This document shows, in pieces, positions 4,921 through 19,654 of a stretch of DNA of 64,000 nucleotides. The notes under the pieces are model-generated. The model was not told where the DNA came from. It saw nothing but the letters and a program-made list of their open reading frames with translations, and did not search any database. The DNA comes from Aquimarina agarivorans. GTDB lineage: Bacteria > Bacteroidota > Bacteroidia > Flavobacteriales > Flavobacteriaceae. Numbering within the stretch: the first letter of the stretch is position 1; each line of letters starts with the position of its first letter. The position numbers and the translations under genes were made by a program. The stretch lies in NCBI RefSeq assembly GCF_000218485.1, contig NZ_AFPB01000089.1, positions 62,001-126,000 on the forward strand, given 5' to 3'.

Positions 4921-6840
4921 TCAAGCATTGGCAAATGCTAAAATTATTTGATCGACCGCATCGGGATTAAGTAATGTAGAAGTATCTCCTAAACTATCTG
5001 TTTCCTTTGATGCAATTTTACGTAAAATACGACGCATAATTTTGCCACTTCGCGTTTTTGGTAACCCTCCTACAAACACCACTATATCTGGTTTAGCAAT
5101 TGGGCCAATGGTACTGGCTATTTGCGCTTTAATTTCATCAATTAGTTGTGGTGAAGCTTTGTAATTATCATGTAAAGTTACATAAGCGCACAAAGCTGTT
5201 CCTTTAATTTCATGCGGAAAGCCTACAATGGCAGATTCTGCTACCGCTGAATGTTCATTTATGGAATTTTCAATAGGAGCGGTTCCCAAATTATGCCCGG
5301 ATACAATAACCACATCATCTACCCTTCCGGTTATGCGATAATTTCCGCTAGCATCTCTATAAGCACCATCACCTGTAAAATACTTTCCAGGAAACTGAGA
5401 AAAATACACAGCTTTGTAACGTTTATGATCTCCATAAACGGTTCTGGCCATGGAAGGCCACGGAAACTGGATAGCCAAACGTCCTTCAGCTTTTTCGGCC
5501 TTTAATGCTATTGATTCGCCGTTTTGATCCATTAACACAGGCTGTATTCCAGGTAATGGTAAGGTAGCAAATGTAGGTCTGGTAGGTGTTATCCCTGCCA
5601 ATGGAGAAATCATTATCGCTCCCGTTTCTGTTTGCCACCAGGTATCTACTATTGGACAATTTCCTTTGCCAACATAGTCGTTATACCAATGCCAGGCTTC
5701 TTCATTTATAGGCTCTCCAACACTTCCCAAAACTTTTAAGCTAGACAGGTCATGTTTTTTTACAAAATCTAGTGACTGTTTTGCCAAAGCCCTTATGGCA
5801 GTTGGCGCTGTATAAAAATGAGAAACTTTTAATTTGTTACAAATTTCCCAGAAACGTCCGTAGTCAGGATAGCTGGGTACACCTTCAAACATCACTGTAG
5901 TTGCCCCAGCAGCCAAAGGACCATAAATAATATAAGAATGCCCCGTAATCCAGCCGATATCAGCTGTACACCAGTACACATCGTTTGCCTCTAGTTGAAA
6001 CACGTTTTGAAACGTAAAAGTACTCCCAACCATGTAGCCCCCCGTGGTATGCACCATACCCTTTGGCTTACCCGTAGATCCTGATGTATATAATATAAAC
6101 AACGCGTCCTCGGAATCCATTTCCTCAGCCTCGCACTCTTTGGCTACTTTCTGTAACTCATCAAACCAAAATTTATCCCTTCCTGGTTTCATTGGTGTAG
6201 GCTCAACGGTTCGGCGATATACAATTACCGTTTCAATGCAAGGCGTTTTTTGTAATGCTTCATCGCAAATACTCTTTAAGGCTACTGGCTTAGTTCCTCG
6301 GTAAACCTCGTTAGCCGTAATCAGCATTTTGCATTCCGAATCATTTATTCTGCTTGCAATTGCGGTACTGGAAAAACCTGCAAATACTATGGAGTGTATG
6401 GCTCCAATTCTGGCGCAAGCCAACATTGCTATAGCTAACTCAGGTATCATAGGCATGTAAATACACACGCGATCTCCTTTTTTTATGCCATTGTTTTTTA
6501 ACACGTTTGCAAAGTGCGATACTTTTACAAATAATTGCCTGTATGTAATATGCCTAGTTTCTTCATCTGGATCATTTGGCTCCCAAATTATGGCTGTTTT
6601 GTTGCCTTGGGTTTCTAAATGACGATCCAAACAATTTTCAGTAATATTTAGTTTTCCTCCTTTAAACCATTCCACTCTGGGGACGTCAAAGTCGTAATCT
6701 AAAGTGCTATCCCATTTCTTTTTCCAATAAAATGTATTGGCAACAGCATCCCAAAATTTCGTAGGATCATCAATACTTTGTTGATACCATTTTTTATATG
6801 CTGCAAAACTTTTAATTTGAAGATTATTAGGAATTTCCAT
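4921..6840 (-). CDS. acs: Acetate--CoA ligase (acetyl-CoA synthetase)
   Basis: A full-length 639-residue AMP-forming acetyl-CoA synthetase. Visible motifs are the phosphate-binding loop YTSGSTGKPKG at residues 251-261, TWWQTETG of the acetate pocket, the hinge and CoA region GRVDDVVIVSGHNLGTAPIE, and the C-terminal catalytic lysine in TRSGKIMRR (Lys600), the residue usually controlled by acetylation. It converts acetate, ATP and CoA to acetyl-CoA, AMP and pyrophosphate in the cytoplasm. It appears monocistronic: the next minus-strand gene upstream is a TonB receptor 110 bp away with no functional link. Confidence 0.97.
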   Translation of the reverse strand: MEIPNNLQIKSFAAYKKWYQQSIDDPTKFWDAVANTFYWKKKWDSTLDYDFDVPRVEWFKGGKLNITENCLDRHLETQGNKTAIIWEPNDPDEETRHITYRQLFVKVSHFANVLKNNGIKKGDRVCIYMPMIPELAIAMLACARIGAIHSIVFAGFSSTAIASRINDSECKMLITANEVYRGTKPVALKSICDEALQKTPCIETVIVYRRTVEPTPMKPGRDKFWFDELQKVAKECEAEEMDSEDALFILYTSGSTGKPKGMVHTTGGYMVGSTFTFQNVFQLEANDVYWCTADIGWITGHSYIIYGPLAAGATTVMFEGVPSYPDYGRFWEICNKLKVSHFYTAPTAIRALAKQSLDFVKKHDLSSLKVLGSVGEPINEEAWHWYNDYVGKGNCPIVDTWWQTETGAIMISPLAGITPTRPTFATLPLPGIQPVLMDQNGESIALKAEKAEGRLAIQFPWPSMARTVYGDHKRYKAVYFSQFPGKYFTGDGAYRDASGNYRITGRVDDVVIVSGHNLGTAPIENSINEHSAVAESAIVGFPHEIKGTALCAYVTLHDNYKASPQLIDEIKAQIASTIGPIAKPDIVVFVGGLPKTRSGKIMRRILRKIASKETDSLGDTSTLLNPDAVDQIILAFANA

Positions 6841-6950: not shown

Positions 6951-9602
6951 TCAAAAATTAAGACGTAAAAAAAAATTTGGAGTGATTCCTAACGAAGTAG
7001 TTTTTATTTCCTTCACCTGATCTAATTGGATTTTTGAATCATCTATATTAATTTGCCTATCTGTAAAATTAATATTTTGAATATTTCTACGATCGTACAA
7101 ATTTTGAATTGAAAGACCTATTTTTACAGATTGATTGTTTTCTCTTTTTGATAATGGAATGGAATAATTAGCTGAAAAATCTAACCTATGAAAATCGGGT
7201 AAACGCTCTCCATTTAATGTTTCAATAGTTGGCGCTAATATATCGTCAAAATCTTTAATAACAGTAAATGGTGTTCCTGTCCTGTATTTCCAACCTAATG
7301 AAAATTGAATCCTTTTCCATTCTAAAAAATTAGAAACTGTAAATGAATGAGTAACGTCATTGCTTGAATTAAATGGTTTACCGTTATTAAGACTTTCAAA
7401 AATTTGTTCATTTTCTGAAAAAGTATAGCCCAACCAAATTGAAAATTTATTTATTTTCTTTTTTAATAAAAAATCTACTCCTTTTATCTTTCCTTCCCCT
7501 TCATTGGGCTGATTAAAAACATTTACAAAACTCCCATTAAAAGCCGTTATGCCTTTTAATTTTTTGTAATACGCATCAATATCAACAATCCAATTTTTGT
7601 TTTTAAATACAGCACCTAACGAAACTTGCTTGCTATTTACTAAAGGTATACTATCATTTGAAGGAAACCATACTTCTGTTTCCTCTCCCGTATCGTTCCC
7701 CGATAAAATTTCAATTCTATTTATATCTTGGTTTTTTTGTTCAGCACTGCCCTTTATTCGTAATTTTTTATGGATTTTTTTTTCTACAAATAACCTAGGT
7801 TCAAATCTTAATCGTTCAAAATTGGCAAATTTATTTACTCTTATTCCAAAGTCCACATGCAAATTTTCAGATTTATTATATGTAAGTTGGCTGTAAAAAG
7901 AGTGACCTGGTTTATTATTATAGCGTTGATTAAAATCGCCAAATATACCTTCTAAAATTCTATAGTTTATACGCTTACTTGTCAATTCGTACCCCGAGCT
8001 TATTCCTACTGAACTATTCCATTGGTAATTCACATTAAAATAGCCTGACGCATCATCAATTTCATTAAACCTTTCTAGCTCAACAGGTGCAAAAAATAAT
8101 GGATTAAAACTTAACCCTACATAATTTAAAGAATAGTTTGAATAATTGCCTCCAATTTTTGTTTTTATTCTATTTGTCCACTTACTTTCTAAAAAAAATG
8201 ATGTTCCTAAATTTTCAATACTCAAAAAATCAAAAAAATTATCAGTCAAAAGGTCACCATCGAAGGTTTCGCCAGTGACAGCATTAAAAACATCGCGCAA
8301 ATCATTATTAGTATAAAGCAGTGTACTCTTTAATTTGTGTGCTTCTGATAATTGAAAAATTAATTTAGCAGAATAATCTTCAAAGACTATTGACCTGCTA
8401 CTTTCATCTGATGCTGTATTAAGTGGAAAAGCTTCTCGATTAATCTTTAATCTTGAATTTTGAAAAATCCTAAAAAAATTATTATCGAAAGCTTGTGTTT
8501 TTAATACATCAATTAAGGATCTACGTCCAGATACAATAAGTCCTAACTTTTTATGTATTGGAATTTTAAGGGCAAAGTCACTAGAAAGTGAGTTGAAACC
8601 AAATGAGGTAATTATTTTTTTAGGAATATTTTCATCCAACCTAATGTCTACCACACCAGAAACACTATTCCCATATTTAGCACTAGTACCACTTTTGTAT
8701 ACTGTAACATTGTTAATGATATTACTATTTAAATTAGTCAAAGTTCCAAAAAAATGATCGGTATTATACAATTTAATATCATCCCATAATATAAGATTTT
8801 GGTCTGTTGTTCCTCCTCTAATTAAGATATCGGATGCATTTTCAGAAACATTATCAACCCCTGGTAACAATTGAATACTTTGTAGTACGTCTGGTTCTGC
8901 TTGACCTGCTAGAATATCTGTTTTTTTAAGATCAAAAAGTACGGTGCCATCATTTTTTAATGAAATACCCGAAGACAAATACTCTTTTATAACTACTTCA
9001 TTTAAAGTATATAACTTTTCTTCTAAATAAAGGTCATTACACTTTTTATAAAATGACTTTACAGCTAGCTTTTTTGATTTAAAACCTAATGAACTGATTA
9101 AAATAGAATCATTTATAGGCACATTACTCAACTGAAAATAGCCTTTAGTACTAGTTGTAGCATATTTGCTACCAGAAAAAGTATTTACATTGGCATTCTC
9201 AATAGGTTTTTTATTAATACTATTTTTTAAATAACCACAAATATACACTTCACTGATAGGCTTAATAACTATGTAGCGATCATCTATTTTTTCAAAACTA
9301 AAATGCAATTGACGTTGAAATTCAACTAAAAATTGGTTTAACGTAGGGTTGACTATGTTTAAATTGATTTTAATCTCTTCAATCCATTCCGGATTGTATG
9401 AAAATTTGACGCCGAACTTTTGCTCTAATTGTTTTAAAACTATGGATAATTCAGTATTAGAGTAGTTATAAGTATTCTCCTGGTTTTGAGCTAAGTTCAG
9501 TTGCACTACTAGAAAGAAAAGTAACGTTAACCTTTTTTTTATAATATTTGATGATAAAAGTCTAATGATGATAAACGAGCTGGAGGTAATTAACTTACAC
9601 AA
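6951..9602 (-). CDS. TonB-dependent receptor with N-terminal STN signalling domain (copy 1)
   Basis: An outer-membrane receptor of about 883 residues. The order is an export signal ending at QLNLAQ, an STN domain (LSIVLKQLEQKFGVKFSYNP onward, about 50-118) that in FecA-type receptors contacts a FecR anti-sigma factor, a carboxypeptidase-like beta-sandwich (VYICGYLKNSINKKPIENAN), a plug domain (QAEPDVLQSIQLLPGVDNVS, then ILIRGG) and a C-terminal beta-barrel ending in aromatic Phe. It is a paralogue of the receptor at 9798-12383 and sits 195 bp downstream of it on the same strand. No SusD partner is present, so a polysaccharide PUL role is not supported. The first 35 codons contain no ATG; the frame begins at a TTG, so the start is uncertain. 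Confidence 0.9.
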   Translation of the reverse strand: MCKLITSSSFIIIRLLSSNIIKKRLTLLFFLVVQLNLAQNQENTYNYSNTELSIVLKQLEQKFGVKFSYNPEWIEEIKINLNIVNPTLNQFLVEFQRQLHFSFEKIDDRYIVIKPISEVYICGYLKNSINKKPIENANVNTFSGSKYATTSTKGYFQLSNVPINDSILISSLGFKSKKLAVKSFYKKCNDLYLEEKLYTLNEVVIKEYLSSGISLKNDGTVLFDLKKTDILAGQAEPDVLQSIQLLPGVDNVSENASDILIRGGTTDQNLILWDDIKLYNTDHFFGTLTNLNSNIINNVTVYKSGTSAKYGNSVSGVVDIRLDENIPKKIITSFGFNSLSSDFALKIPIHKKLGLIVSGRRSLIDVLKTQAFDNNFFRIFQNSRLKINREAFPLNTASDESSRSIVFEDYSAKLIFQLSEAHKLKSTLLYTNNDLRDVFNAVTGETFDGDLLTDNFFDFLSIENLGTSFFLESKWTNRIKTKIGGNYSNYSLNYVGLSFNPLFFAPVELERFNEIDDASGYFNVNYQWNSSVGISSGYELTSKRINYRILEGIFGDFNQRYNNKPGHSFYSQLTYNKSENLHVDFGIRVNKFANFERLRFEPRLFVEKKIHKKLRIKGSAEQKNQDINRIEILSGNDTGEETEVWFPSNDSIPLVNSKQVSLGAVFKNKNWIVDIDAYYKKLKGITAFNGSFVNVFNQPNEGEGKIKGVDFLLKKKINKFSIWLGYTFSENEQIFESLNNGKPFNSSNDVTHSFTVSNFLEWKRIQFSLGWKYRTGTPFTVIKDFDDILAPTIETLNGERLPDFHRLDFSANYSIPLSKRENNQSVKIGLSIQNLYDRRNIQNINFTDRQINIDDSKIQLDQVKEIKTTSLGITPNFFLRLNF

Positions 9603-9797
9603 TTAAACAATAAACAGTACTTTCAAAATCTCTTGTTAATTAGCAAAATTTATATAGACAATCTAGTGATAATTTAACGTTTTTTAAAGATAAAAATTGC
9701 ACATGTATATAATACCACACTATTCGTCTTTAAAGGTGTTTTAAGATTAAGAATAAAATAAATAAACACCTAGTTTTAAAGAAATTTTTTGTTTGAT

Positions 9798-12383
9798 TTA
9801 AAAAAATAAACGTATATAAAAATTGGGGGTTATCCCTAATGATTTAGTTTTAAATTCCAAGGGAGTAGCATCAATATTAATAGTTTGCGAAGTTATTCTT
9901 CTTCCAAAACGGATATCTAAAATATTCTCTTTGTTATAAACATTTTGAAGTGATACTCCAAATTTTAATTTTTGATCACTGTTTATTTTTGATAATTTCG
10001 TAACGTATGTCAATGAAGCATCTAGCCTATGGTAATCAGGCAAACGTTTTTCATTAAGAGCATCAAAACTATCAGGTTCTAAGCCATTTAAACTCAATTG
10101 ATTTATTTTGGTAAAAGGAATACCGGTTCGATACCTCCACCCTAAGGAAACTTGAAAATTTTTCCATTCAAAAAAATGTGACCATGTTAGGGAGTGTCTT
10201 ATATCATTGTTGGCATCAAATACCCTATTGTTATTTATGTTTTGAAATTGTTGCTCATTTTTTGAATAAGAATATCCCAACCAGGTAGTATAATTTTTAA
10301 ATTTCTTTTTTAATAAAAAATCAACTCCTTTAGCTTCTCCTCTTCCTTCTTCAGGTATTATATTTAATAAATTAACAGTACTTATTGGGAACATTGTTAA
10401 TCCCTCTGATTTTTTATAATACATATCAACATCAAAAACCCAATTTCTTTTTTTATAAATAATACCAGCAGACACTTGAGTGCTTTTTAACAACGGAATA
10501 CTATCCTGTATTGAGGGCAACCATATTTCATTTTCTTCCCCTGTATCAAAACCTGAAAGTACCTGCACCCTATTGATTGATTGATGTCTTATTTCGGCAC
10601 TAGCCCTGGCCCTTAATTTTTTTGTAACATTTTTTCCAAGGCTTAATCTTGGTTCCCATTTTAAATCATCAAAATTTGCTACCTTATTTACCCTCAAACC
10701 CAAGGATACATTTGTTTTTTTAGGCTTATTGTAAATGACTTGTCCATAAAAAGAATGGGCAGGTTTATTTTTTTGATCGATATTAAAAAACTCATCCGTA
10801 AGAACGAAAATTCCTGTTTTTATGCGTGTACTAAATATCTCGTAACCTGTAGCTAGCGTTATTTTTTTCGATAATTGATAGTTCGCATTAGCATAGGAAC
10901 TTACTTCGTCAATTTCATTAAATCGTTCCAGTTCAAATGGAAAATTAAAAACCGGATTAAAACTAAAACCTACATAGTTCAAACTATAATTTGAATACCT
11001 GATGCCAATGGTTGTATCAAATTTTTTATTCCAATTACTATCCAATACGCCTACTGCTCCTAAATTCTTAATTTTTAAATCGTCAAAAAAAGTAACGTCA
11101 ACGTTACCTGTAGCTTCTGATGCTAAAAAGCCAATTTGATCTTCGTACTTATTATTTGTTACTAGCACCGTACTCGAAAAACTATGTTTGGATAAAAAAT
11201 TGTAAATTAATTTAGCCGAATGATCTTCATAAATTAAATTTTGCTTTTGCTGCACCTGAACATCAGTATTAAAAGCTTGTCTATTCAATTGAACTCTAGA
11301 ATTTTGAAAGATGCGATTGAAATTATTATTAAATGCCTCAGTCTTATAAAAATCTGTTAAAGACCTCCGGGTAGAAAAAATTAAACCCAATTTTTTAGCA
11401 ATAGGCAGTTTCAATGAAAAATCTATATGTAAAGGATTCAAACCTATATTTGATGCTATTTTTTTGGGCAAATCGCTATCTAAATTAATATCAATAACCC
11501 CTGAAACTCTATCACCAAACTTGGAATCCACACCGCTTTTTTGAATAGATACATTGTTTACAATGGACGTATTTAAATTTGTTAGTGTTCCAAAAAAATG
11601 ATCCGTATTGTATAACTTGATTCCGTCCCATAATATCAAATTCTTATCGGGACTACTTCCCCTGATTACCAGGTCAGTCGCATTTTCAGTTACGCTGTCA
11701 ATCCCTGGTAAAAGCTGAACGCTTTGCAATACATCGGGTTCGGCTTGACCTGCTAAAATATCTGGTTTACTCAAATCAAAATTAACAACACCACCATTCA
11801 TTAATGATATACTGGAAGATAAGTATTCCTTTACTACTACTTCATTTAATAAATATAATTTATCTTCTAAAAATAGGTCATTACACTTTTTATAAAAATT
11901 TACCGCAGGAATTTTTCTTGATTCAAAACCCAATGATTTAATTACTATGGTATCGTTTATATTTACGTCACTTATTTGAAAATAACCATTTGTACTAGTA
12001 ATTGTTTTCAATTTTTGTTTTAAAACAGTTATGGTTGCATTTTCAATTGGTTTTTTTAATGCAGTGTCTTTTAAGTAACCACAAACGTAAACTTTGTTTG
12101 TTGGCTTAATACTAATATAACGTTCATCTATTCTAATAAAAATAAAGTGTAATTGCCTTTGCAATTCGGCTAATATTTGGTTTATGGTGGGGTTTTGTAA
12201 TTGAAGGGATACTTTCTCTTTACTAATCCATTCAGGATTGTAAGAAAATTTTACTTCAAATTTTTGCTCTATTTCTTTTAAAATAGGTAATAAACTTGCA
12301 TCAATAGCCCTAAACGAACTATTTTTTTGTTGTGCAAAACTTAAATTTAAAATAAAGAAAAAATAAAAAGTTATTTTTTTCAT
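9798..12383 (-). CDS. TonB-dependent receptor with N-terminal STN signalling domain (copy 2)
   Basis: An 861-residue receptor with a clear ATG start and signal peptide (MKKITFYFFFILNLSFAQ). It has the same plan as the neighbouring receptor: STN domain (SLLPILKEIEQKFEVKFSYNP onward), carboxypeptidase-like regulatory domain (VYVCGYLKDTALKKPIENAT), plug (ILAGQAEPDVLQSVQLLPGI) and beta-barrel with the closing ITPNFYIRLFF. The two proteins share long identical blocks such as NTDHFFGTLTNLN, so they come from a tandem duplication followed by divergence. It lies downstream of sigma and FecR genes, the usual arrangement for surface-signalling receptors. The ligand is unknown. Confidence 0.93.
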   Translation of the reverse strand: MKKITFYFFFILNLSFAQQKNSSFRAIDASLLPILKEIEQKFEVKFSYNPEWISKEKVSLQLQNPTINQILAELQRQLHFIFIRIDERYISIKPTNKVYVCGYLKDTALKKPIENATITVLKQKLKTITSTNGYFQISDVNINDTIVIKSLGFESRKIPAVNFYKKCNDLFLEDKLYLLNEVVVKEYLSSSISLMNGGVVNFDLSKPDILAGQAEPDVLQSVQLLPGIDSVTENATDLVIRGSSPDKNLILWDGIKLYNTDHFFGTLTNLNTSIVNNVSIQKSGVDSKFGDRVSGVIDINLDSDLPKKIASNIGLNPLHIDFSLKLPIAKKLGLIFSTRRSLTDFYKTEAFNNNFNRIFQNSRVQLNRQAFNTDVQVQQKQNLIYEDHSAKLIYNFLSKHSFSSTVLVTNNKYEDQIGFLASEATGNVDVTFFDDLKIKNLGAVGVLDSNWNKKFDTTIGIRYSNYSLNYVGFSFNPVFNFPFELERFNEIDEVSSYANANYQLSKKITLATGYEIFSTRIKTGIFVLTDEFFNIDQKNKPAHSFYGQVIYNKPKKTNVSLGLRVNKVANFDDLKWEPRLSLGKNVTKKLRARASAEIRHQSINRVQVLSGFDTGEENEIWLPSIQDSIPLLKSTQVSAGIIYKKRNWVFDVDMYYKKSEGLTMFPISTVNLLNIIPEEGRGEAKGVDFLLKKKFKNYTTWLGYSYSKNEQQFQNINNNRVFDANNDIRHSLTWSHFFEWKNFQVSLGWRYRTGIPFTKINQLSLNGLEPDSFDALNEKRLPDYHRLDASLTYVTKLSKINSDQKLKFGVSLQNVYNKENILDIRFGRRITSQTINIDATPLEFKTKSLGITPNFYIRLFF

Positions 12384-12662: not shown

Positions 12663-13585
12663 TTATTTATTTTTTAATTTGATAATCTTTTCATCCAAAA
12701 ATTCATAATCGACTTCCAAAGATTCAAATACAATTTTTAATGCCTTTTCAAGGTTATCATGCATAAACACACCTGTAAAACGTAAAGAATCATTTATTTT
12801 ACCGCTTTGAATTTTAACATTATACTGATTTTCCAAGGCTTTGACCACTTGTTTTACAGGAGAATTATAAAAGGAACTTTCTTTTGAAATCCATAAAGGA
12901 GCGGATTCATTAAATTGCCATTTTTCTAATTTATCATTTACAAACCTTACAGATTCACCTTTTCTAATAATTTCAGATGTTTCACCTTTATCGACCCTTA
13001 CCACACCCTCAAAACAATTTACCTCAAAAACCGAAGTTTTTGAATTGGTGTCCACATTAAATTGAGTTCCTAAAACACTCACATTTCCATTTTTAGATTG
13101 CACAGTAAACTTAGATCCTTTAGTAACTTTAAAATAAGCTTCGCCTTCTAAATTTAATATACGATTGTTTTCCCAATCATTTTTATTATAAGTTATTTTA
13201 GAATTTGCATTTAAAATAACCTCAGAATTATCAGGAAGTTTAAAGCTAATTTGTTCTCCGTAATTTGATGTATATGATGTCCTTTTGAAAATAAAAAAGT
13301 AAGTCCAAAAACAAGAATCACTGATGCTGCAACACCATAAACCCACTTAGGAATCATTGAAACCACCTTTCCTTGATCTTGTTTTTTAGCAACTTCATTT
13401 GACTTGCTATCCAACTTATCTTTCAATTTTTTATAGGAAGCTTCGGCGTCATATGCTGGTATATCTAATTTTTCTACACCACTTAATATGTCTTGATAAA
13501 GTTTATTATCATCAGTTGCCTCAAATACCTTTTTATCGCTTTCGGACAATTCATTATTAGCCCATTTTGCCAAAAAATTTTCCAT
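12663..13585 (-). pseudogene. FecR-family anti-sigma factor, broken by a frameshift
   Basis: The gene is split over two frames. The 5' part (13585 down to about 13290) encodes an N-terminal sigma-binding region (LAKWANNELSESDKKVFEAT) and a transmembrane helix at about residues 81-100 (WVYGVAASVILVFGLTFLFS). The 3' part, in another frame to 12663, encodes the FecR domain (EQISFKLPDNSEVILNANS, LNLEGEAYFKVTKGSKF) and the C-terminal STN-like DUF4974 domain (VKQVVKALENQYNVKIQSG). One added base in the homopolymer runs at 13283-13298 would restore a protein of roughly 307 residues. FecR normally relays receptor occupancy to its sigma factor, which starts 11 bp upstream. A sequencing error is possible, but so is real inactivation. 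Confidence 0.85.
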
Positions 13586-13596
13586 TTGATATCTTT

Positions 13597-14116
13597 TTAA
13601 AGGTTAGTACCTAATTTTTCTTTTAATTTTTTTAATGCTAAATGCATTCTTCTTTCTACTCCTTTTTGCGTCAATCCAACTATTTCGGCAATTTCTCTAT
13701 ACGTCTTTTTATCCTTTCGACTTAGTAAAAAAACTTCTCTTTCCTTTTCAGGAAGTTCGGCAATACTCCGTTGTAATTTTTCTAAAAAACTCTTTTTCTT
13801 CTAAAATATATTCTGGACTTTGAAGATCGCAATTTGATTTACTGTCATTTTTAGTATATTCTAAAACAACTTTTTGATGCCTAACATTATTAAAAAACGA
13901 GTTTTGTGCTACTTTCATAACAAAAGACTTCGCTTTTGCAAATGGAATTTTTTTACAATTATCCCATAATTTAATAAAAGCATCTTGTGTTAAGTCTTCT
14001 GCTTGATCAATATCACCACATTTGTAAAAGATAAAATTCCTAATAATCTCCGAATTTTGCGTAAAAATTTCTTTAAAATTTTTTTCTTCGCAAATTGATA
14101 TATCTCTACTATTCAT
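13597..14116 (-). pseudogene. ECF RNA polymerase sigma factor, broken by a frameshift
   Basis: The first part (14116 down to about 13790) encodes sigma region 2 with AEDLTQDAFIKLWDN and continues to YILEEKE. It then runs into RKITTEYCRTS and stops at 13748. In the next frame, from the same point to a TAA at 13597-13599, lies region 4: LPEKEREVFLLSRKDKKTYR followed by EIAEIVGLTQKGVERRMHLA. Removing one base from the run of six A at 13784-13789 joins the two into a normal ECF sigma of about 172 residues. It stands 11 bp before the FecR gene, as expected for a FecI/FecR pair. Without region 4 the product could not bind a -35 element. Confidence 0.85.
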
Positions 14117-14177: not shown

Positions 14178-15434
14178 TTATATTTTCTCAAATTTAAATT
14201 CTTTACCATTAGATAATTGCTTTAAATACAATTCGTTATTTTCAACACTAATCCTTAAAACAAATATTGATAGTTGTCCTTCCCTAATTTCTACATTAAA
14301 TGAGTCCCTTCTAAAATTCAATCTAAATTCATTTTTTAAAGAACCTGCATCAAATAATCTCAAAATGGATAGCGACGATATTTCAATCATATCAAAATCA
14401 TTTGTAAAACCTGCTACTTCAGGTGTAATTCCTTCTATCAACTGCATTCTCGTGGACGACGGGAACAATAATTGATTACCATCAAAGGTATTAGAAGGGT
14501 TTATTTCCAAAGTATCATCATTTATAACTTCACCTTTATATTGCCACTTACCAATAACATCCATGAAATTTAAAACTATAAATCTATCATTGTTATCTAT
14601 TGGAACTTCTCTTACGGGTTCTTCTTCTGTTGGAGTTTCCTCTGTTGGGTCACCTTCTCCTTCTTCTGGATTTCCTTCTCCTTCTTCAGGGTCTCCTTCT
14701 CCTTCTTCTGGATTTCCTTCTCCTTCTTCTGGATCAACTTCTCCTTCTTCAGGATTTCCTTCTCCTTCTGGATCACCTTCTCCTTCTTCAGGATCTTCTT
14801 CTTCTTCTTCTTCTGGATTAGTTTTTGGTCTTTCTAACAAATAAAGAAGCATGTTAATCCTATTAAACATCTGTCCGATAATTAATACATCATCAGATTT
14901 GGAATAAAGAATAATTTTGGATGAAGTAATTTTATCTAAAATACTATTTTCACCTAAATCAAAATTAAAAAGTCCCTCATCCCTATCTCCATCAGTTTCT
15001 AATGGAGCAATAGTTATCGTATACAATGCATTATCAATGTTTTTTCTAAAAAGTTGAACGTTATTCCCAGTAAAATTCAAACTATGAATTTGTTTTATAT
15101 TCGGCGGTGCCGCAGGAAAAAATAATCGACTTGTGTTAATTGAATCTATTTCTTTAAAACTCTCCTCGTTTCTAAGATTAACACCTGTCGCTATCCATTC
15201 GCCTTGAATTGATTCAATATCAGTAACTAAAGATGAATTTAAGGCTTCTTCCCGAACTTCATCATCTTTAATTTCTATAGTTAAAATGTCAATTTTACTC
15301 AAAAAATTTTCAATTCCTTGTTCATTTGTTATTCTTAAAGTTCTCCTTAACTCTTCTATTTCATCATCATCATCACAAGAAAAAAACAGAATTCCAATCA
15401 ACAGAAATAACTTTATAAAAGTGCTTTTTCTCAT
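14178..15434 (-). CDS. Lipoprotein with a heptapeptide repeat linker, function unknown
   Basis: A 418-residue protein with a lipoprotein signal (MRKSTFIKLFLLIGILFFSC, lipid Cys20) followed by an Asp-rich start. Two segments of about 130 residues flank a low-complexity linker: residues about 77-201 (QGEWIATG) and about 290-418 (IGKWQYKG). The similar openings suggest related beta-rich domains. The linker (206-272) is built from seven-residue units of the type D/N-PEEGEG. The gene ends 62 bp before the frameshifted sigma factor on the same strand and may be its operon leader. I recognise no family. A surface-exposed or periplasmic lipoprotein with two domains on an extended acidic tether is the most that can be said. 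Confidence 0.78.
   Translation of the reverse strand: MRKSTFIKLFLLIGILFFSCDDDDEIEELRRTLRITNEQGIENFLSKIDILTIEIKDDEVREEALNSSLVTDIESIQGEWIATGVNLRNEESFKEIDSINTSRLFFPAAPPNIKQIHSLNFTGNNVQLFRKNIDNALYTITIAPLETDGDRDEGLFNFDLGENSILDKITSSKIILYSKSDDVLIIGQMFNRINMLLYLLERPKTNPEEEEEEDPEEGEGDPEGEGNPEEGEVDPEEGEGNPEEGEGDPEEGEGNPEEGEGDPTEETPTEEEPVREVPIDNNDRFIVLNFMDVIGKWQYKGEVINDDTLEINPSNTFDGNQLLFPSSTRMQLIEGITPEVAGFTNDFDMIEISSLSILRLFDAGSLKNEFRLNFRRDSFNVEIREGQLSIFVLRISVENNELYLKQLSNGKEFKFEKI
14619..14819 (-). repeat. 21-bp tandem repeat inside the lipoprotein gene
   Basis: About seven in-frame copies of a 21-bp unit encode D/N-P-E-E-G-E-G. One copy is a codon short (DPEGEG) and one ends in Val. The array is bordered by an Glu-rich stretch and by PTEETPTEEEP. 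Such arrays change copy number by slippage without breaking the reading frame. Confidence 0.85.
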
Positions 15435-15579: not shown

Positions 15580-15609
15580 TTAAACTTTTAGCTTTTATCA
15601 TTGTCTAAA
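15580..15609 (+). promoter_or_regulatory. Candidate ECF-sigma promoter before the sigma operon
   Basis: TTAAAC, a spacer rich in T, then TCATTGTCTAAA. The same 30-bp arrangement occurs at 16887-16916 with 24 of 30 bases equal, and the last 12 bases are identical. A conserved upstream TTAAAC and a GTCTAA-type -10 box look like an ECF promoter. It ends 55 bp before the sigma start codon, which suggests autoregulation. Confidence 0.55.
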
Positions 15610-15664
15610 CTTAAAAGTTTATAATTAAAGCAAGCTCTTTAAGAGCAAAAAAAAAGTAAAATAG

Positions 15665-16204
15665 TTGAATACAGACCAATTACTTATCAAATCTTTAAAA
15701 GACAAAAAGCAAAGGGATGCTGCTTTTAAAATACTTTTAAATACGTACCAGCAGCGCTTATACTGGCATGTACGAAAACTAGTTTTAATCCATGATGACG
15801 CTAATGACGTACTGCAAAATACGTTTATAAAAATTCACAAAAATATAGCTACCTTTAAAGGAAACAGCACATTGCATACCTGGATGTATCGCATTGCCTA
15901 CAATGAAGCTATTAATTTTTTAAAAGCCAAACAAAAGCGTTTACTATTAAATTCAGATGATTTAAGTACAAAAATCTTGAATGAACTTAAAGAAGACCCC
16001 TATTTTGACGGTAATGATATTCAATTTAAATTACAAGAAGCATTGCTAAAACTGCCTAAAAAACAGAGACAAGTTTTTATAATGAAATATTACGACGACT
16101 TAAAGTTTAAGGAAATTTCCGAGATTATTGGCACTAGTGAAGGTGCTTTAAAAGCATCATACCACCTTGCTGTTAAAAAAATTGAACGTTTTTTAACTAA
16201 TTAA
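15665..16204 (+). CDS. ECF RNA polymerase sigma factor (sigma-70 family)
   Basis: An intact 179-residue ECF sigma factor. Region 2 includes LVLIHDDANDVLQNTFIKIH and the promoter-melting segment ATFKGNSTLHTWMYRIAYNE. Region 4 includes LPKKQRQVFIMKYYDDLKFK and EISEIIGTSEGALKASYHLA. The start is a TTG at 15665 (MNTDQLLIKSLKDKKQRDAA); no in-frame ATG precedes region 2. It is followed by a one-helix membrane protein and a Spy-like periplasmic protein, all on the plus strand, an arrangement frequent in Flavobacteriia. A promoter-like element shared with the third gene lies upstream, so it probably controls its own operon. The signal is presumably envelope stress, which is inferred. Confidence 0.9.
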   Translation: MNTDQLLIKSLKDKKQRDAAFKILLNTYQQRLYWHVRKLVLIHDDANDVLQNTFIKIHKNIATFKGNSTLHTWMYRIAYNEAINFLKAKQKRLLLNSDDLSTKILNELKEDPYFDGNDIQFKLQEALLKLPKKQRQVFIMKYYDDLKFKEISEIIGTSEGALKASYHLAVKKIERFLTN

Positions 16205-16309
16205 TGAGGTTTAAAGACTTTTTTATAAACTTAAATTAGTCTGCGGCTTGCTTATAATATTAAAATAGATAAACTTTACCTACCATGGTATTGTCAATTG
16301 CTGATTATT

Positions 16310-16798
16310 ATGAAAAAACACAGTTCAAAAACACCTGACGAAAATGGTTTTTCCATTCCTAAATTTTACTTTGAAAATTTTCAATCCAATTTAACTGATA
16401 AGCTTAAAAAAAATCCAAACTTGACAAATGATAAGGAGTTAGGTTTTAATGTTCCTAAGGACTTTCACAAAGATTTTTCTGCTCAAATACTTAAAAAAAC
16501 GAAGCCTAAAGAATCATTTGTCAAAATTTTAATATTACAAAAAATAAAATATGCGCTATTTGCAGCAGCTTCTATCATTTTTTGCTTTTTACTATTTACC
16601 AATACCAATAAAAATACAATAACAAAATTAATAGTTCCCACTGTAGTAGATACTACAAACGTTATGAAACAAAAGATTCAAGAACAATTTGAGATTAACG
16701 AAAAAGATACCAAAATGATGGCTCTATTTATTGATGATACGTTAGTTGATGAATATTTAGAAGCCTTGTTAATTGAAGAACTCGCTTTTGAAGATTGA
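16310..16798 (+). CDS. Single-pass membrane protein, candidate anti-sigma factor
   Basis: A 162-residue protein starting at the ATG at 16310 (a TTG four codons upstream is less likely). The cytoplasmic N-terminal half carries two copies of a roughly 20-residue motif, GFSIPKFYFENFQSNLTDKL at 13-32 and GFNVPKDFHKDFSAQILKKT at 45-64, with the shared pattern GFxxPxxFxxxF. One hydrophobic helix spans about 79-97, and the remainder, ending in an acidic tail, would be periplasmic. Its place between an ECF sigma gene and a periplasmic sensor-like gene, together with this topology, suggests an anti-sigma factor. It lacks the zinc-finger (ZAS) signature and does not resemble FecR, so the assignment rests on context. 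Confidence 0.75.
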   Translation: MKKHSSKTPDENGFSIPKFYFENFQSNLTDKLKKNPNLTNDKELGFNVPKDFHKDFSAQILKKTKPKESFVKILILQKIKYALFAAASIIFCFLLFTNTNKNTITKLIVPTVVDTTNVMKQKIQEQFEINEKDTKMMALFIDDTLVDEYLEALLIEELAFED

Positions 16799-16886
16799 AT
16801 TCATTAAACTTTAACAACCGAGCCATTTGCTATACTTTATCATTGCTTCAATACTTAATTCTTAATAAAAAATAAAACTTAACATT

Positions 16887-16916
16887 TTAAACCTTTTATA
16901 TTTTTCATTGTCTAAA
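16887..16916 (+). promoter_or_regulatory. Second copy of the candidate ECF-sigma promoter
   Basis: The sequence runs TTAAACC, a T-rich spacer, then TCATTGTCTAAA, and matches the element at 15580-15609 in 24 of 30 bases at the same spacing. It ends 64 bp before the Spy-like gene, so that gene can be transcribed separately and probably belongs to the regulon. Confidence 0.55.
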
Positions 16917-16980
16917 AAGTAGAACGCGTTTTAAAATGTTTAACCATACCATATACAACTGGTATTAAAATTTGATAAAT

Positions 16981-17415
16981 ATGAAATTACATAAATTAAT
17001 TTGGACTCTACTTACTAGCTTTTTGATTACAATAAATTTTTGTTTTGGACAAGAAATTAAAAACGAGTTCAATACAAATAAAAAATTTAGGGCTGAGGCT
17101 AGAAAAGAAGCCATCAAAACCTTAACTGAGGAACAAAAAACTGTTTTTAATGCACATAAAGCATTACTTAAGGAAAATAGAAAAAAATTAAAATCGTTAC
17201 TTGATCAAAAACAACTTGCTATTTTAAAAGACAAAACCATTCCTAAACGTGAACGTATGAAAAGTTTACGCAACACCTTTACTGATGAACAAAAAGCTAT
17301 TTTTAAAGCCAATCGGATAGCTGCTAAAAAAAGTAAAGAAAAATTTAGGGCTTCGCTTACTGAAGAACAAAAGGCGCTTTTTAAAAATGCGCGTAAAATT
17401 TCTAAAAAAGGATAG
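16981..17415 (+). CDS. Spy/CpxP-like periplasmic protein
   Basis: A 144-residue exported, strongly basic, helical protein. The signal peptide ends at NFCFGQ (about residue 24). Three motifs of the Spy/CpxP type follow: LTEEQKTVF at 48, FTDEQKAIF at 100 and LTEEQKALF at 126. In Spy and CpxP the LTxxQ motifs belong to the curved helical fold that binds unfolded proteins or a sensor kinase. I start at the ATG at 16981 rather than the TTG at 16972. It is the third member of the sigma locus and has its own copy of the candidate promoter. It may act as the periplasmic sensor or chaperone; this is inferred. Confidence 0.78.
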   Translation: MKLHKLIWTLLTSFLITINFCFGQEIKNEFNTNKKFRAEARKEAIKTLTEEQKTVFNAHKALLKENRKKLKSLLDQKQLAILKDKTIPKRERMKSLRNTFTDEQKAIFKANRIAAKKSKEKFRASLTEEQKALFKNARKISKKG

Positions 17416-17471: not shown

Positions 17472-18161
17472 CTATAATCTATACAAATCTAGTGGCAATA
17501 CTTCCTTAGGAGTGCCTTTAGCTGAAATTGTTCCATTATTTAATTGCCAAACGTTACCCACTAGTTGATATAATTCCAAAGGATCATGACTAACAATAAG
17601 TATGGTGAGTTGATACTTTTTATGCACTTTGGCAATAAATTGTTGCAAACGCTGCCTCATTTCAATATCCAATGCCGAAAGAGGCTCATCCAACAGTAAT
17701 AATTTTGGTTTTTGCACCAAAGCCCTGGCCAATGAAACACGCTGTTTTTGCCCACCTGATAGCTGCTGACTATTAAAATTTAGTAAAGCTTTCAATTCCA
17801 TGACTTCAATCAATTCTTCCAAAAAATATTTTTTTTGATGCGCTGTTAATGCAAAACGTAAGTTTTGTAGAACCGTCATATTTGGAAATAACACGTCATT
17901 TTGAAAAACATAACCAATACTACGTTTTTGTACAGGTATATTAATTTTTTTTGAGCTATCAAACCAAATTTCACCATCAACCACAATACGGCCATTTGTT
18001 GGTTTTTCCAAACCCGAAAGCATCTGCAGTAATGTTGTTTTTCCAATTCCTGACTTTCCATAAATTCCAATGAAATCACCCTTTACAATATTTTCGTCAA
18101 TATTCAAAGTAAAATCACCTTCGGCTCCTTTAAGTTTTTTTTCTATTGTTAGTAAAATCAT
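17472..18161 (-). CDS. modC: Molybdate ABC transporter, ATP-binding protein
   Basis: A 229-residue ABC ATPase with Walker A GKSGIGKTTLL, Q-loop VFQND, signature LSGGQKQRVSLARAL, Walker B LLLLDEPLSALD and the H-loop VSHD. It is shorter than Escherichia coli ModC because the C-terminal molybdate-binding MOP domain is absent, as in many Bacteroidota. It is the third gene of a modABC operon and lies 31 bp after modB. With ModB it powers molybdate uptake for molybdenum-cofactor enzymes. The assignment to molybdate follows from the neighbouring modA and modB; sulfate-type systems are the main alternative. Confidence 0.88.
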   Translation of the reverse strand: MILLTIEKKLKGAEGDFTLNIDENIVKGDFIGIYGKSGIGKTTLLQMLSGLEKPTNGRIVVDGEIWFDSSKKINIPVQKRSIGYVFQNDVLFPNMTVLQNLRFALTAHQKKYFLEELIEVMELKALLNFNSQQLSGGQKQRVSLARALVQKPKLLLLDEPLSALDIEMRQRLQQFIAKVHKKYQLTILIVSHDPLELYQLVGNVWQLNNGTISAKGTPKEVLPLDLYRL

Positions 18162-18192
18162 AAGGCGAGTAAAATTCTTTCCAAGGGGAAGG

Positions 18193-18888
18193 TTAATTAT
18201 TTCTTCTCAGGTAACAGTTATTATATTTTGATAATGAATATACTACCACTAAAACCAAGAAACTAATTGCCAACAAAATTGCGGAATAAGTATGTGCTGT
18301 ACCATAATTAAGCGCCTCTACCTGTTCGTAGATAACACTAGAAACTACTTGAGTTTTATTTGGTATACTTCCGCCAACCATGAGCACCACACCAAACTCT
18401 CCAATTGTATGCGCAAAAGTGAGTACCATTCCCGTTAAAATTGAATTTTGACAATTGGGTAATAATACGCGCCAAAATGTTTGCCATTTTGATTTTCCTA
18501 AAACATAAGCTGCCTCAGGCAAATTTTTAGGTAAGTTTTGCAATCCATTTTGAATAGGCTGTACCATAAATGGCAGGCTATAAATTATTGAAGCTAAAAC
18601 CAAACCACTAAATGAAAATACTAATTGTATATTAAAAATGTCATTAAGCCATTTCCCTAAACCATGGGATGGAGAGAAAGCTATTAAAAAATAAAAACCA
18701 ATTACTGTGGGTGGCAATACCAAAGGCATTCCTACCAATGCTTCAAATACAGGTTTTAATTTATTTTTGGTAAATGCCAATGCATAAGCAATAGGAATAC
18801 CAAAAATTACCAAAATTAAGGTAGTAGCAAAAGCTAATTTTGTAGTTAAAAATAAAGGCTGCCAATTGAAATTACTCAGGAACATCAT
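18193..18888 (-). CDS. modB: Molybdate ABC transporter, permease
   Basis: A 231-residue inner-membrane permease with about five helices. It carries MPLVLPPTVIGFYFLIAFSP near the N-terminus and the cytoplasmic EAA loop EAAYVLGKSKWQTFWRVLLP that docks on ModC, followed by FAHTIGEFGVVLMVGG, a strong ModB signature. Its first 17 bases overlap the end of modA, which indicates translational coupling. Confidence 0.92.
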   Translation of the reverse strand: MMFLSNFNWQPLFLTTKLAFATTLILVIFGIPIAYALAFTKNKLKPVFEALVGMPLVLPPTVIGFYFLIAFSPSHGLGKWLNDIFNIQLVFSFSGLVLASIIYSLPFMVQPIQNGLQNLPKNLPEAAYVLGKSKWQTFWRVLLPNCQNSILTGMVLTFAHTIGEFGVVLMVGGSIPNKTQVVSSVIYEQVEALNYGTAHTYSAILLAISFLVLVVVYSLSKYNNCYLRRNN

Positions 18889-19654
18889 AACCGTATTTTT
18901 TCAGGATAGTTTTTGCTTTTTCAGTACGCATAAAATTAGCATATTTACCTGCTTTTGTCTTTGTTGTTTCATTGTTACTTGTGATAACTAATTGATGCTC
19001 CAAAGGTTTATAAAACCTTTTATCAATTTCGCGATAGTGCTGTTTGTTAAAAGTATTATTATTTACAAATAATAATGACTTAGATGTAAAACCAACATCA
19101 GCTGCACCAGATAGTATAAATTGATTAGTCTGCCCTACGCTTTCTCCAAAAACTAATTTATACGCCACATGTTGATACACACCCCAATTGTGCAATAATT
19201 CCTCACTTGCCAAGCCATAAGGTGCTATCTTAGGATTTGGAATTGCAATTTTTTTTACTGCCGTAGAAGTTATAAAGTGTTGTACTGATGACTCTATTTT
19301 TTTATTGGAAATCATGATTAACTTTCCCGTAGCAACGGTAATTGGTTGTTCATACTTTTTGTTTGCTGAAATAAGATGTTTGGGATATTTTGCACTAGCC
19401 GAAATAAATACATCATACGGTGCTCCTGCCATCAATTGGGCGGTCAATTTACCTGAAGATGCTGTAATCAAACTTATTGCTATACCCGTTTGCTGTTCAA
19501 ATTCATCGTTTAATTCGGTTAAAACATGACTCATGTTGGATGCAGCTGCAATGAGCAAAGGCTCTTTTTTTTGAGTATTACACGAATTCAAAGTTAAAAT
19601 TAAGCATGCAAAATACCTTACTATACTAATTGAACTTGCACTATTATTTTGCAT
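18872..19654 (-). CDS. modA: Molybdate ABC transporter, substrate-binding lipoprotein
   Basis: A 260-residue binding protein with a lipoprotein-type signal (LILTLNSC). The mature part begins LLIAAASNMSHVLTELNDEF, and SLITASSGKLTAQLMAGAPY is the typical ModA oxyanion-binding region. GAADVGFTSKSLL and a C-terminal KAKTILKKYGY also match. It captures molybdate or tungstate outside the inner membrane and delivers it to ModBC. It is the first gene of the operon, so the operon promoter lies in the 19655-19931 spacer. No molybdenum-cofactor RNA motif was recognised there. Confidence 0.92.
   Translation of the reverse strand: MQNNSASSISIVRYFACLILTLNSCNTQKKEPLLIAAASNMSHVLTELNDEFEQQTGIAISLITASSGKLTAQLMAGAPYDVFISASAKYPKHLISANKKYEQPITVATGKLIMISNKKIESSVQHFITSTAVKKIAIPNPKIAPYGLASEELLHNWGVYQHVAYKLVFGESVGQTNQFILSGAADVGFTSKSLLFVNNNTFNKQHYREIDKRFYKPLEHQLVITSNNETTKTKAGKYANFMRTEKAKTILKKYGYDVPE

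Follow-up and report, generated by a model that had tools for sequence, protein, structure and literature searches.

A conserved two-box element, very probably an autoregulated ECF promoter, in a sigma factor/Spy-like cassette of Aquimarina agarivorans and other Bacteroidota

The sigma factor cassette and its surroundings

The window, by which we mean the whole stretch of 64,000 nucleotides analysed here, comes from Aquimarina agarivorans (contig NZ_AFPB01000089.1). On its forward strand it carries a cassette within 15665-17415, in the order sigma factor, presumed anti-sigma factor and Spy-like protein. The first gene (15665..16204, +) encodes an ECF sigma factor of 179 residues; its start codon is uncertain, the ORF call beginning at a TTG. 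Pfam models placed Sigma70_r2 at residues 24-91 (1.8e-12) and Sigma70_r4_2 at residues 122-173 (2.5e-16), and the protein matches TIGR02937 at 3.9e-27. Its domains are limited to regions 2 and 4, which is the composition of an ECF sigma factor.

The third gene (16981..17415, +) encodes an exported Spy/LTXXQ-like protein of 144 residues, with a signal peptide recognised by eye. It matches PF07813 at 3.9e-9 (37.6 bits against a cut-off of 24.3) over the whole protein, no single stretch passing alone. The matches to TIGR02937 and PF07813 agree with the names that a preliminary description of this DNA had given to the two genes. A structure model of the Spy-like protein is all-helical (mean pLDDT 85.8). 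The fold search returned helical bundles only, with no Foldseek match at or below 0.001; CpxP (3itf) stood at E 2.0, and ZraP (3lay) reached Z 7.5 amid unrelated helical entries. A Spy profile compared with solved structures gave nothing relevant. Between the sigma and Spy-like genes lies an ORF of 162 residues with one hydrophobic segment (16310..16798, +; also open from a TTG at 16298), which the preliminary description omits and which is taken up below.

Several neighbouring genes were noted. A FecI/FecR-type sigma/anti-sigma pair (12663-14116, -) adjoins two TonB-dependent receptors (6951-12383), and both genes of the pair appear interrupted. The FecI-type sigma ORF holds region 2 only, with a region-4-like part in another frame (by eye), and FecR is spread across two overlapping ORFs; these are either decayed genes or errors of the draft. 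At 14653-14819 on the reverse strand, the gene of a putative lipoprotein contains eight tandem copies of a repeat of about 21 bp, which encode an acidic GEGNPEEGEGDPEEG-like segment. On the other side of the cassette, 17472-19654 (-) encodes the ATPase, permease and solute-binding protein of an ABC transporter, which by its arrangement would be of the molybdate type.

A paired 30-bp element

A pattern TTAAAC-N12-TCATTGTCTAAA had been described before the sigma gene and again before the Spy-like gene. We found it exactly at both places with identical spacing, at 15580..15609 (+; P1) and 16887..16916 (+; P3, the second copy), and the reported agreement of 24 bases in 30 was reproduced. P1, an ECF-type promoter candidate, has a -35 box TTAAAC(TTTT), a gap of 16 bp and a -10 box TGTCTAAA. 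P3 has the -35 box TTAAACCTTTT, 16 bp from TTAAAC to TGTC, and the -10 box TGTCTAAA. With TTAAAC at both sites, AAC is present in the -35 box, AAC having itself belonged to the core used in the comparative search. In the -10 box the GTC core is kept, with T before it in the window and not the C of CGT. No ungapped 30-mer pairing of the two intergenic regions matches better than the 24/30 element, which, as far as this one search reaches, agrees with the statement that these regions are otherwise unlike each other.

The 18 fixed bases of the pattern occur exactly only at these two places in the 4.07-Mb genome (a draft of 182 contigs). When up to three mismatches were allowed, the window gave 2 matches; shuffled sequences averaged 0.40, and 8 of 100 reached 2. 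Dinucleotide shuffling of the two regions equalled the 24/30 match in 4 of 1000 rounds and the exact run of 12 bases in 22 of 300. The match between the two copies is moderately improbable by chance, and since its significance within the window is insufficient alone, the comparative data carry the case.

The preliminary description also expected the motif to lead to the whole regulon by a genome-wide search. A larger regulon was indeed found in relatives from the genus, but the window's own genome yielded only two convincing sites. The pattern gave 31 sites there (2 exact, none with one or two mismatches and 29 with three) against 33 for the reversed control, the consensus with at most two mismatches gave 7 against 19, and the core alone gave 6, P1 and P3 included, against 13. 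We looked at the contexts of the four other core-only sites and the five other consensus sites, one of which is shared, and rejected them as targets. The site at window position 6662 is antisense inside an acetyl-CoA synthetase-like gene (by eye), five (L333, L152, L153, L155 and L156) lie inside open frames, and one (L334) has no ORF within the following 600 bp. The last (L332) lies 118 bp before the gene of an exported-looking protein and is without the CTTT part. The cytochrome c peroxidase that is a target in a close relative had no match in the window's genome when a 90-residue piece was used, and as this search had no positive control, the absence says little. Since no further convincing site was found, the regulon of this genome may be just two transcripts; in the window's species either the regulon is small or its other sites have drifted.

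Conservation of core and spacing in Bacteroidota

Of the 52 genus genomes, 49 have a clear sigma orthologue (E <1e-50). Elsewhere in the order, 4 of 39 genomes had a match below 1e-50 and 12 more had one between 1e-50 and 1e-25. Sixty-four loci of relatives had a sigma match below 1e-25; 60 of them were taken, and four of the weaker ones were left out. A scan of named genomes supplied the best 80 of at least 591 loci, which come from flavobacteria, Sphingobacterium, Pedobacter, Bacteroidales and Spirosoma. In the family of one Bacteroidaceae locus (L274), 54 of 61 sampled genomes had a sigma match below 1e-50, and the Bacteroidaceae loci are those of the best-scoring 30 of these 61 genomes. 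The comparison set comprised the 80 named loci, the window, the 60 relatives and 32 further loci, 173 in all, and was reduced to 155 non-redundant loci by removing sigma factors at least 95% identical.

In 95 of 154 loci, TTAAAC-N17-GTC lay in the 250 bp preceding the sigma gene, whereas each of eight control spacers (13-16 and 18-21) gave 0-3. From 12 bp before to 120 bp past the end of the sigma gene it was found in 103 of 153 loci (other spacers 0-1). The stretch from +300 to +1150 downstream held it in 13 of 149 loci, with 0-2 for the other spacers. Either the upstream or the sigma-end site was present in 127 of the 155 loci, both in 71 and neither in 28; the exact P1 core is absent in 59 of 154 loci and the sigma-end site in 50 of 153. 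Upstream and sigma-end sites numbered 42 and 30 in relatives from the genus and order (n = 52), 47 and 56 in the named loci (n = 74), and 6 and 17 in the best-scoring Bacteroidaceae loci (n = 29). At 94 of 155 loci, the reading frame of the sigma factor ends on the TAA of TTAAAC, and we refer to this sigma-end candidate as the stop-codon promoter. Among the longer Bacteroidaceae loci (n = 20), the core motif was found in 8 of 15 first copies and in 0 of 5 second paralogues.

These five second sigma paralogues (L313, L314, L316, L318 and L331), four of which have a matching anti-sigma and Spy gene downstream, may read a different promoter.

The core common to the phylum, A-TTAAAC-CTTTT-N12-A-GTC-WWA, is shorter than the window motif and differs from it. 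Conservation extends to positions outside the search core: the C (77/88%), three Ts (83-93%) and the final A (97-98%). The base before GTC is mostly A in the relatives (77% at P1 and 66% at the sigma-end site); T, the window base, is in the minority in the phylum, and CGTC is also found in a minority.

The probable regulon in the genus

We counted a longer pattern, TTAAACCTTT-N13-GTCNNA, in 91 genomes, cassette sites included. Its sites numbered 283 and fell in 56 genomes; the control gave 9. Within the genus, all 49 genomes with the sigma orthologue contained sites (271 against 8 in the control), while none of the three without it did (Fisher p 4.5e-5, phylogeny ignored). Elsewhere in the order the signal is sparser: the longer motif was present with 7 sites in 2 of the 4 genomes whose sigma match fell below 1e-50, with 4 sites (control 1) in 4 of the 12 that had a weaker match, and with 1 site in 1 of the 23 that had none.

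Forty of the 283 sites were inspected. Thirty are every non-cassette site of four genus genomes; the other ten were picked, nine for a recurring sequence or for their location in genome G004 and one as belonging to the close relative G007. Among the 30, 29 lie outside ORFs with a gene start between -13 and +50 bp of the site end, and the remaining one is antisense inside an ORF. With the picked sites included, a start lies at -13 to +60 bp in 37 of 40; one picked site is inside a same-strand open frame and another is 127 bp from a start. The same two-box motif with fixed spacing stands before the sigma gene and before other genes.

The four inspected relatives have 7-9 sites each besides the cassette. 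When the targets of the four genomes were clustered and named by Pfam, seven families recurred. A DUF2541 protein, a DUF6515 protein and a DUF1800 protein are targets in all four genomes, as are two proteins without Pfam match, a second Spy-like protein and a lipoprotein-like protein of 276 residues. A beta-lactamase-family protein is a target in three of the four and a di-haem cytochrome c peroxidase in two. Most target N-termini look exported (by eye), and the Spy-like protein of the window aligns over its full length with the other Spy-like protein of the regulon at 30% identity. In one relative (G039), a motif site (L348) precedes a type IX secretion PorP/SprF-like protein (by eye).

The middle protein

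The protein encoded at 16310-16798 is probably an anti-sigma factor. In 152 of 155 loci the sigma gene has an ORF after it, chosen as the longest one starting near the sigma stop, and 150 of these 152 have a single hydrophobic segment of 17 residues. No Pfam or NCBIfam family scored above cut-off in the window protein or in those relatives that were scanned, and the anti-sigma profile gave nothing relevant among solved structures. The structure model is of low confidence (mean pLDDT 63.5, no strand elements) and too weak to support a role or location of the repeats described here.

In relatives, the N-terminal part of this protein consists of repeats of the form GFkVPegYFexf...i. One repeat was found in 54 of the 152 proteins, two in 77, three to seven in 17 and none in 4, counts that are partly circular because the repeat model was seeded from the same proteins and used with a 5-bit threshold. 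The highest numbers occur in Sphingobacterium and Mucilaginibacter, with five to seven tandem GFxVPxxYF copies (L236, L255, L265, L269 and L270). The window protein has one clear copy (16346..16414, +; 19.1 bits) and one degenerate copy (GFNVPKDFHKDF..., 16442..16501, +), which was recognised by eye and aligned, and for which the repeat model reaches only 5.1 bits over part of its length. The repeat may bind the sigma factor, and the part that bears it may be cytoplasmic.

Apparent rewiring in the window clade

Third genes of such cassettes go by the label 'sensor of ECF-type sigma factor', a phrase absent from the papers searched. What comes after the anti-sigma gene encodes, in most named loci, a small exported protein whose consensus is FITExLxLxxxEAQxFWPIYN. 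The FWPIYN-type profile matched in 0 of 6 genomes of the window clade (two of them incomplete) and in 2 of 2 genus genomes chosen as positives; it had no match in two genomes without the sigma gene. All six clade loci have P1 and none has the stop-codon promoter; five have a site downstream of the anti-sigma gene. An LTEEQ-type Spy gene was seen after that site in four of the five, the contig ending first in L063. In the sixth clade genome (G005), the Spy gene and the sigma gene are on different contigs, and a motif site accompanies the Spy gene (L336). The six genomes hold 19 sites, of which 10 belong to cassettes; the 9 others are all intergenic, 26-150 bp before a gene. The absence of both the FWPIYN partner gene and the stop-codon promoter appears to be a loss in this clade. 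The clade looks like a natural rewiring, in which partner and promoter are absent and a Spy-type gene of another kind has its own promoter.

Interpretation and alternatives

The preliminary description read the element as an autoregulated ECF promoter. This is very probably correct, given the conservation of the motif and its spacing among relatives, its joint occurrence with the sigma gene across the genus and the trans sites before gene starts. On sequence comparison, we give a probability of about 0.92 that RNA polymerase with the sigma factor of 15665-16204 uses both elements as promoters. At rest, the membrane anti-sigma factor would hold the sigma factor, and an envelope signal would release it, whereupon its own operon and the Spy-like gene would be transcribed. 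P1 would provide positive autoregulation of the sigma/anti-sigma pair, and P3 would drive the exported Spy-like protein. In relatives, the released sigma factor would also transcribe lipoprotein-like and other exported proteins. At about six in ten loci, the stop-codon promoter would drive the anti-sigma gene together with the FWPIYN-type exported protein, giving negative feedback. Here we infer the anti-sigma role, the stress signal and the direction of the feedback.

We also put forward, tentatively and as a proposal more doubtful than the promoter reading, that the system is an envelope-stress switch found throughout Bacteroidota, with a promoter grammar of its own. The stop-codon promoter would boost the inhibitor and its exported partner, and the inhibitor would be a modular titrator with 1-7 tandem sigma-binding GFxVPxxYF copies, through whose number lineages would tune the threshold.

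The modest significance within the window (4 of 1000 shuffles for 24/30 and 22 of 300 for the exact run) would fit a chance likeness of two AT-rich intergenic stretches, or remnants of a local duplication. Core and spacing, however, recur in orthologous loci of many Bacteroidota with divergent spacers, and an accident of either kind is extremely improbable. The element might instead be an operator for a DNA-binding repressor or activator with no sigma-factor promoter, as regulators too can bind conserved pairs of short boxes and the start sites here are predicted. Such an operator is very unlikely in view of the asymmetry of the motif, its ECF-type boxes and spacing, and its single orientation before gene starts at 29 of 30 sites. 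The motif moreover tracks the sigma gene, with none in the three genus genomes that lack it.

The same three genomes bear on another possibility, that several ECF sigma factors of the cell use the element, that of 15665-16204 being only one of them. Genomes of this kind hold multiple ECF-like matches (14 in G000), and Guerin et al. suggest that the motif SM6 of Flavobacterium psychrophilum could serve several sigma factors (PMC9723704). Yet the three genomes without the orthologue keep 16, 2 and 6 ECF-like matches and have zero motif sites, so that we consider a shared element rather unlikely. A promoter read by the cassette's own sigma factor remains the preferred reading.

Conservation of the motif reaches from marine flavobacteria to Bacteroidaceae, and the control counts are close to nil, so that an ECF regulon of this type may be readable from many genomes, possibly including that of a cassette whose strong induction in mouse colitis has been reported. 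Two ideas on how the switch may be damped arise from the candidate stop-codon promoter and from the repeats of the presumed anti-sigma factor.

Comparison with known systems

To our knowledge, Bacteroidota have many ECF sigma factors and few known promoters. No motif was known for any alternative ECF sigma factor of B. thetaiotaomicron at the date of PMC7366714. No paper found in our literature search gives the present motif, which may nevertheless be listed in the ECF reclassification or EcfO papers.

In Phocaeicola vulgatus, cirY/cirZ is a sigma/anti-sigma pair with a co-transcribed spy gene, according to a 2026 study (PMC13114119). That study reports that cirY/cirZ/spy rise more than 130-fold in mouse colitis, that deletion of cirZ, the anti-sigma gene, raises cirY and spy, that transposon insertions in the three genes were not under-represented during colitis, and that there is a second spy locus. 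The window has the same order of sigma factor, presumed anti-sigma factor and Spy-like protein. A possible relation of its sigma factor to CirY is suggested by matches in genomes of the family of L274. In the Bacteroidaceae loci, a Spy profile matched downstream in 18 of 20 and an anti-sigma profile in 17 of 20, and some of these genomes carry further sigma paralogues. As the motif is lacking in all five second paralogues and in 7 of 15 first copies, CirY may belong to either branch. The main text on CirY/CirZ/Spy differs from the present description in naming no promoter motif (the word 'motif' occurs 0 times; PMC13114119). A further difference lies in the Spy-like protein of the window, whose type is not that of the usual third gene.

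The CnrYXH system of Cupriavidus combines a small single-pass anti-sigma factor with a periplasmic partner that is small and helical. Among the third-gene proteins of relatives, three gave weak matches, all below cut-off, to Metal_resist, which we take to be the CnrX-type family. Unlike CnrYXH, the window anti-sigma factor has repeats and a profile without a relevant match among solved structures. The pair CnrH-CnrY is named in PMC8103513. Bacteroidota pairs of an ECF21 sigma factor with a Dma/Reo anti-sigma factor are tied to the envelope (PMC13088901); Dma has a long tether and a C-terminal beta-barrel, whereas the protein described here has 162 residues and one hydrophobic segment. The R. 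anatipestifer sigma factor RA0C_1534 (PMC6557517) was also considered for comparison.

SM6 of F. psychrophilum is a mapped ECF motif with a CGT -10 box, and a sigma/anti-sigma operon is included among its sites (PMC9723704). Its targets include type IX secretion genes, and other ECF starts may await discovery according to the same paper. SM6 and the window element are both flavobacterial and were compared by -10 box and targets. The generic ECF promoter has AAC at -35 and CGT at -10 (PMC8103513). The window element resembles it in AAC at -35, GT at -10, a presumed anti-sigma gene beside the sigma gene and predicted positive autoregulation. It differs in the long -35 box TTAAACCTTTT, in AGTC/TGTC in place of CGTC, and in the candidate second promoter of 94 of 155 loci, the -35 box of which includes the stop codon of the sigma gene.
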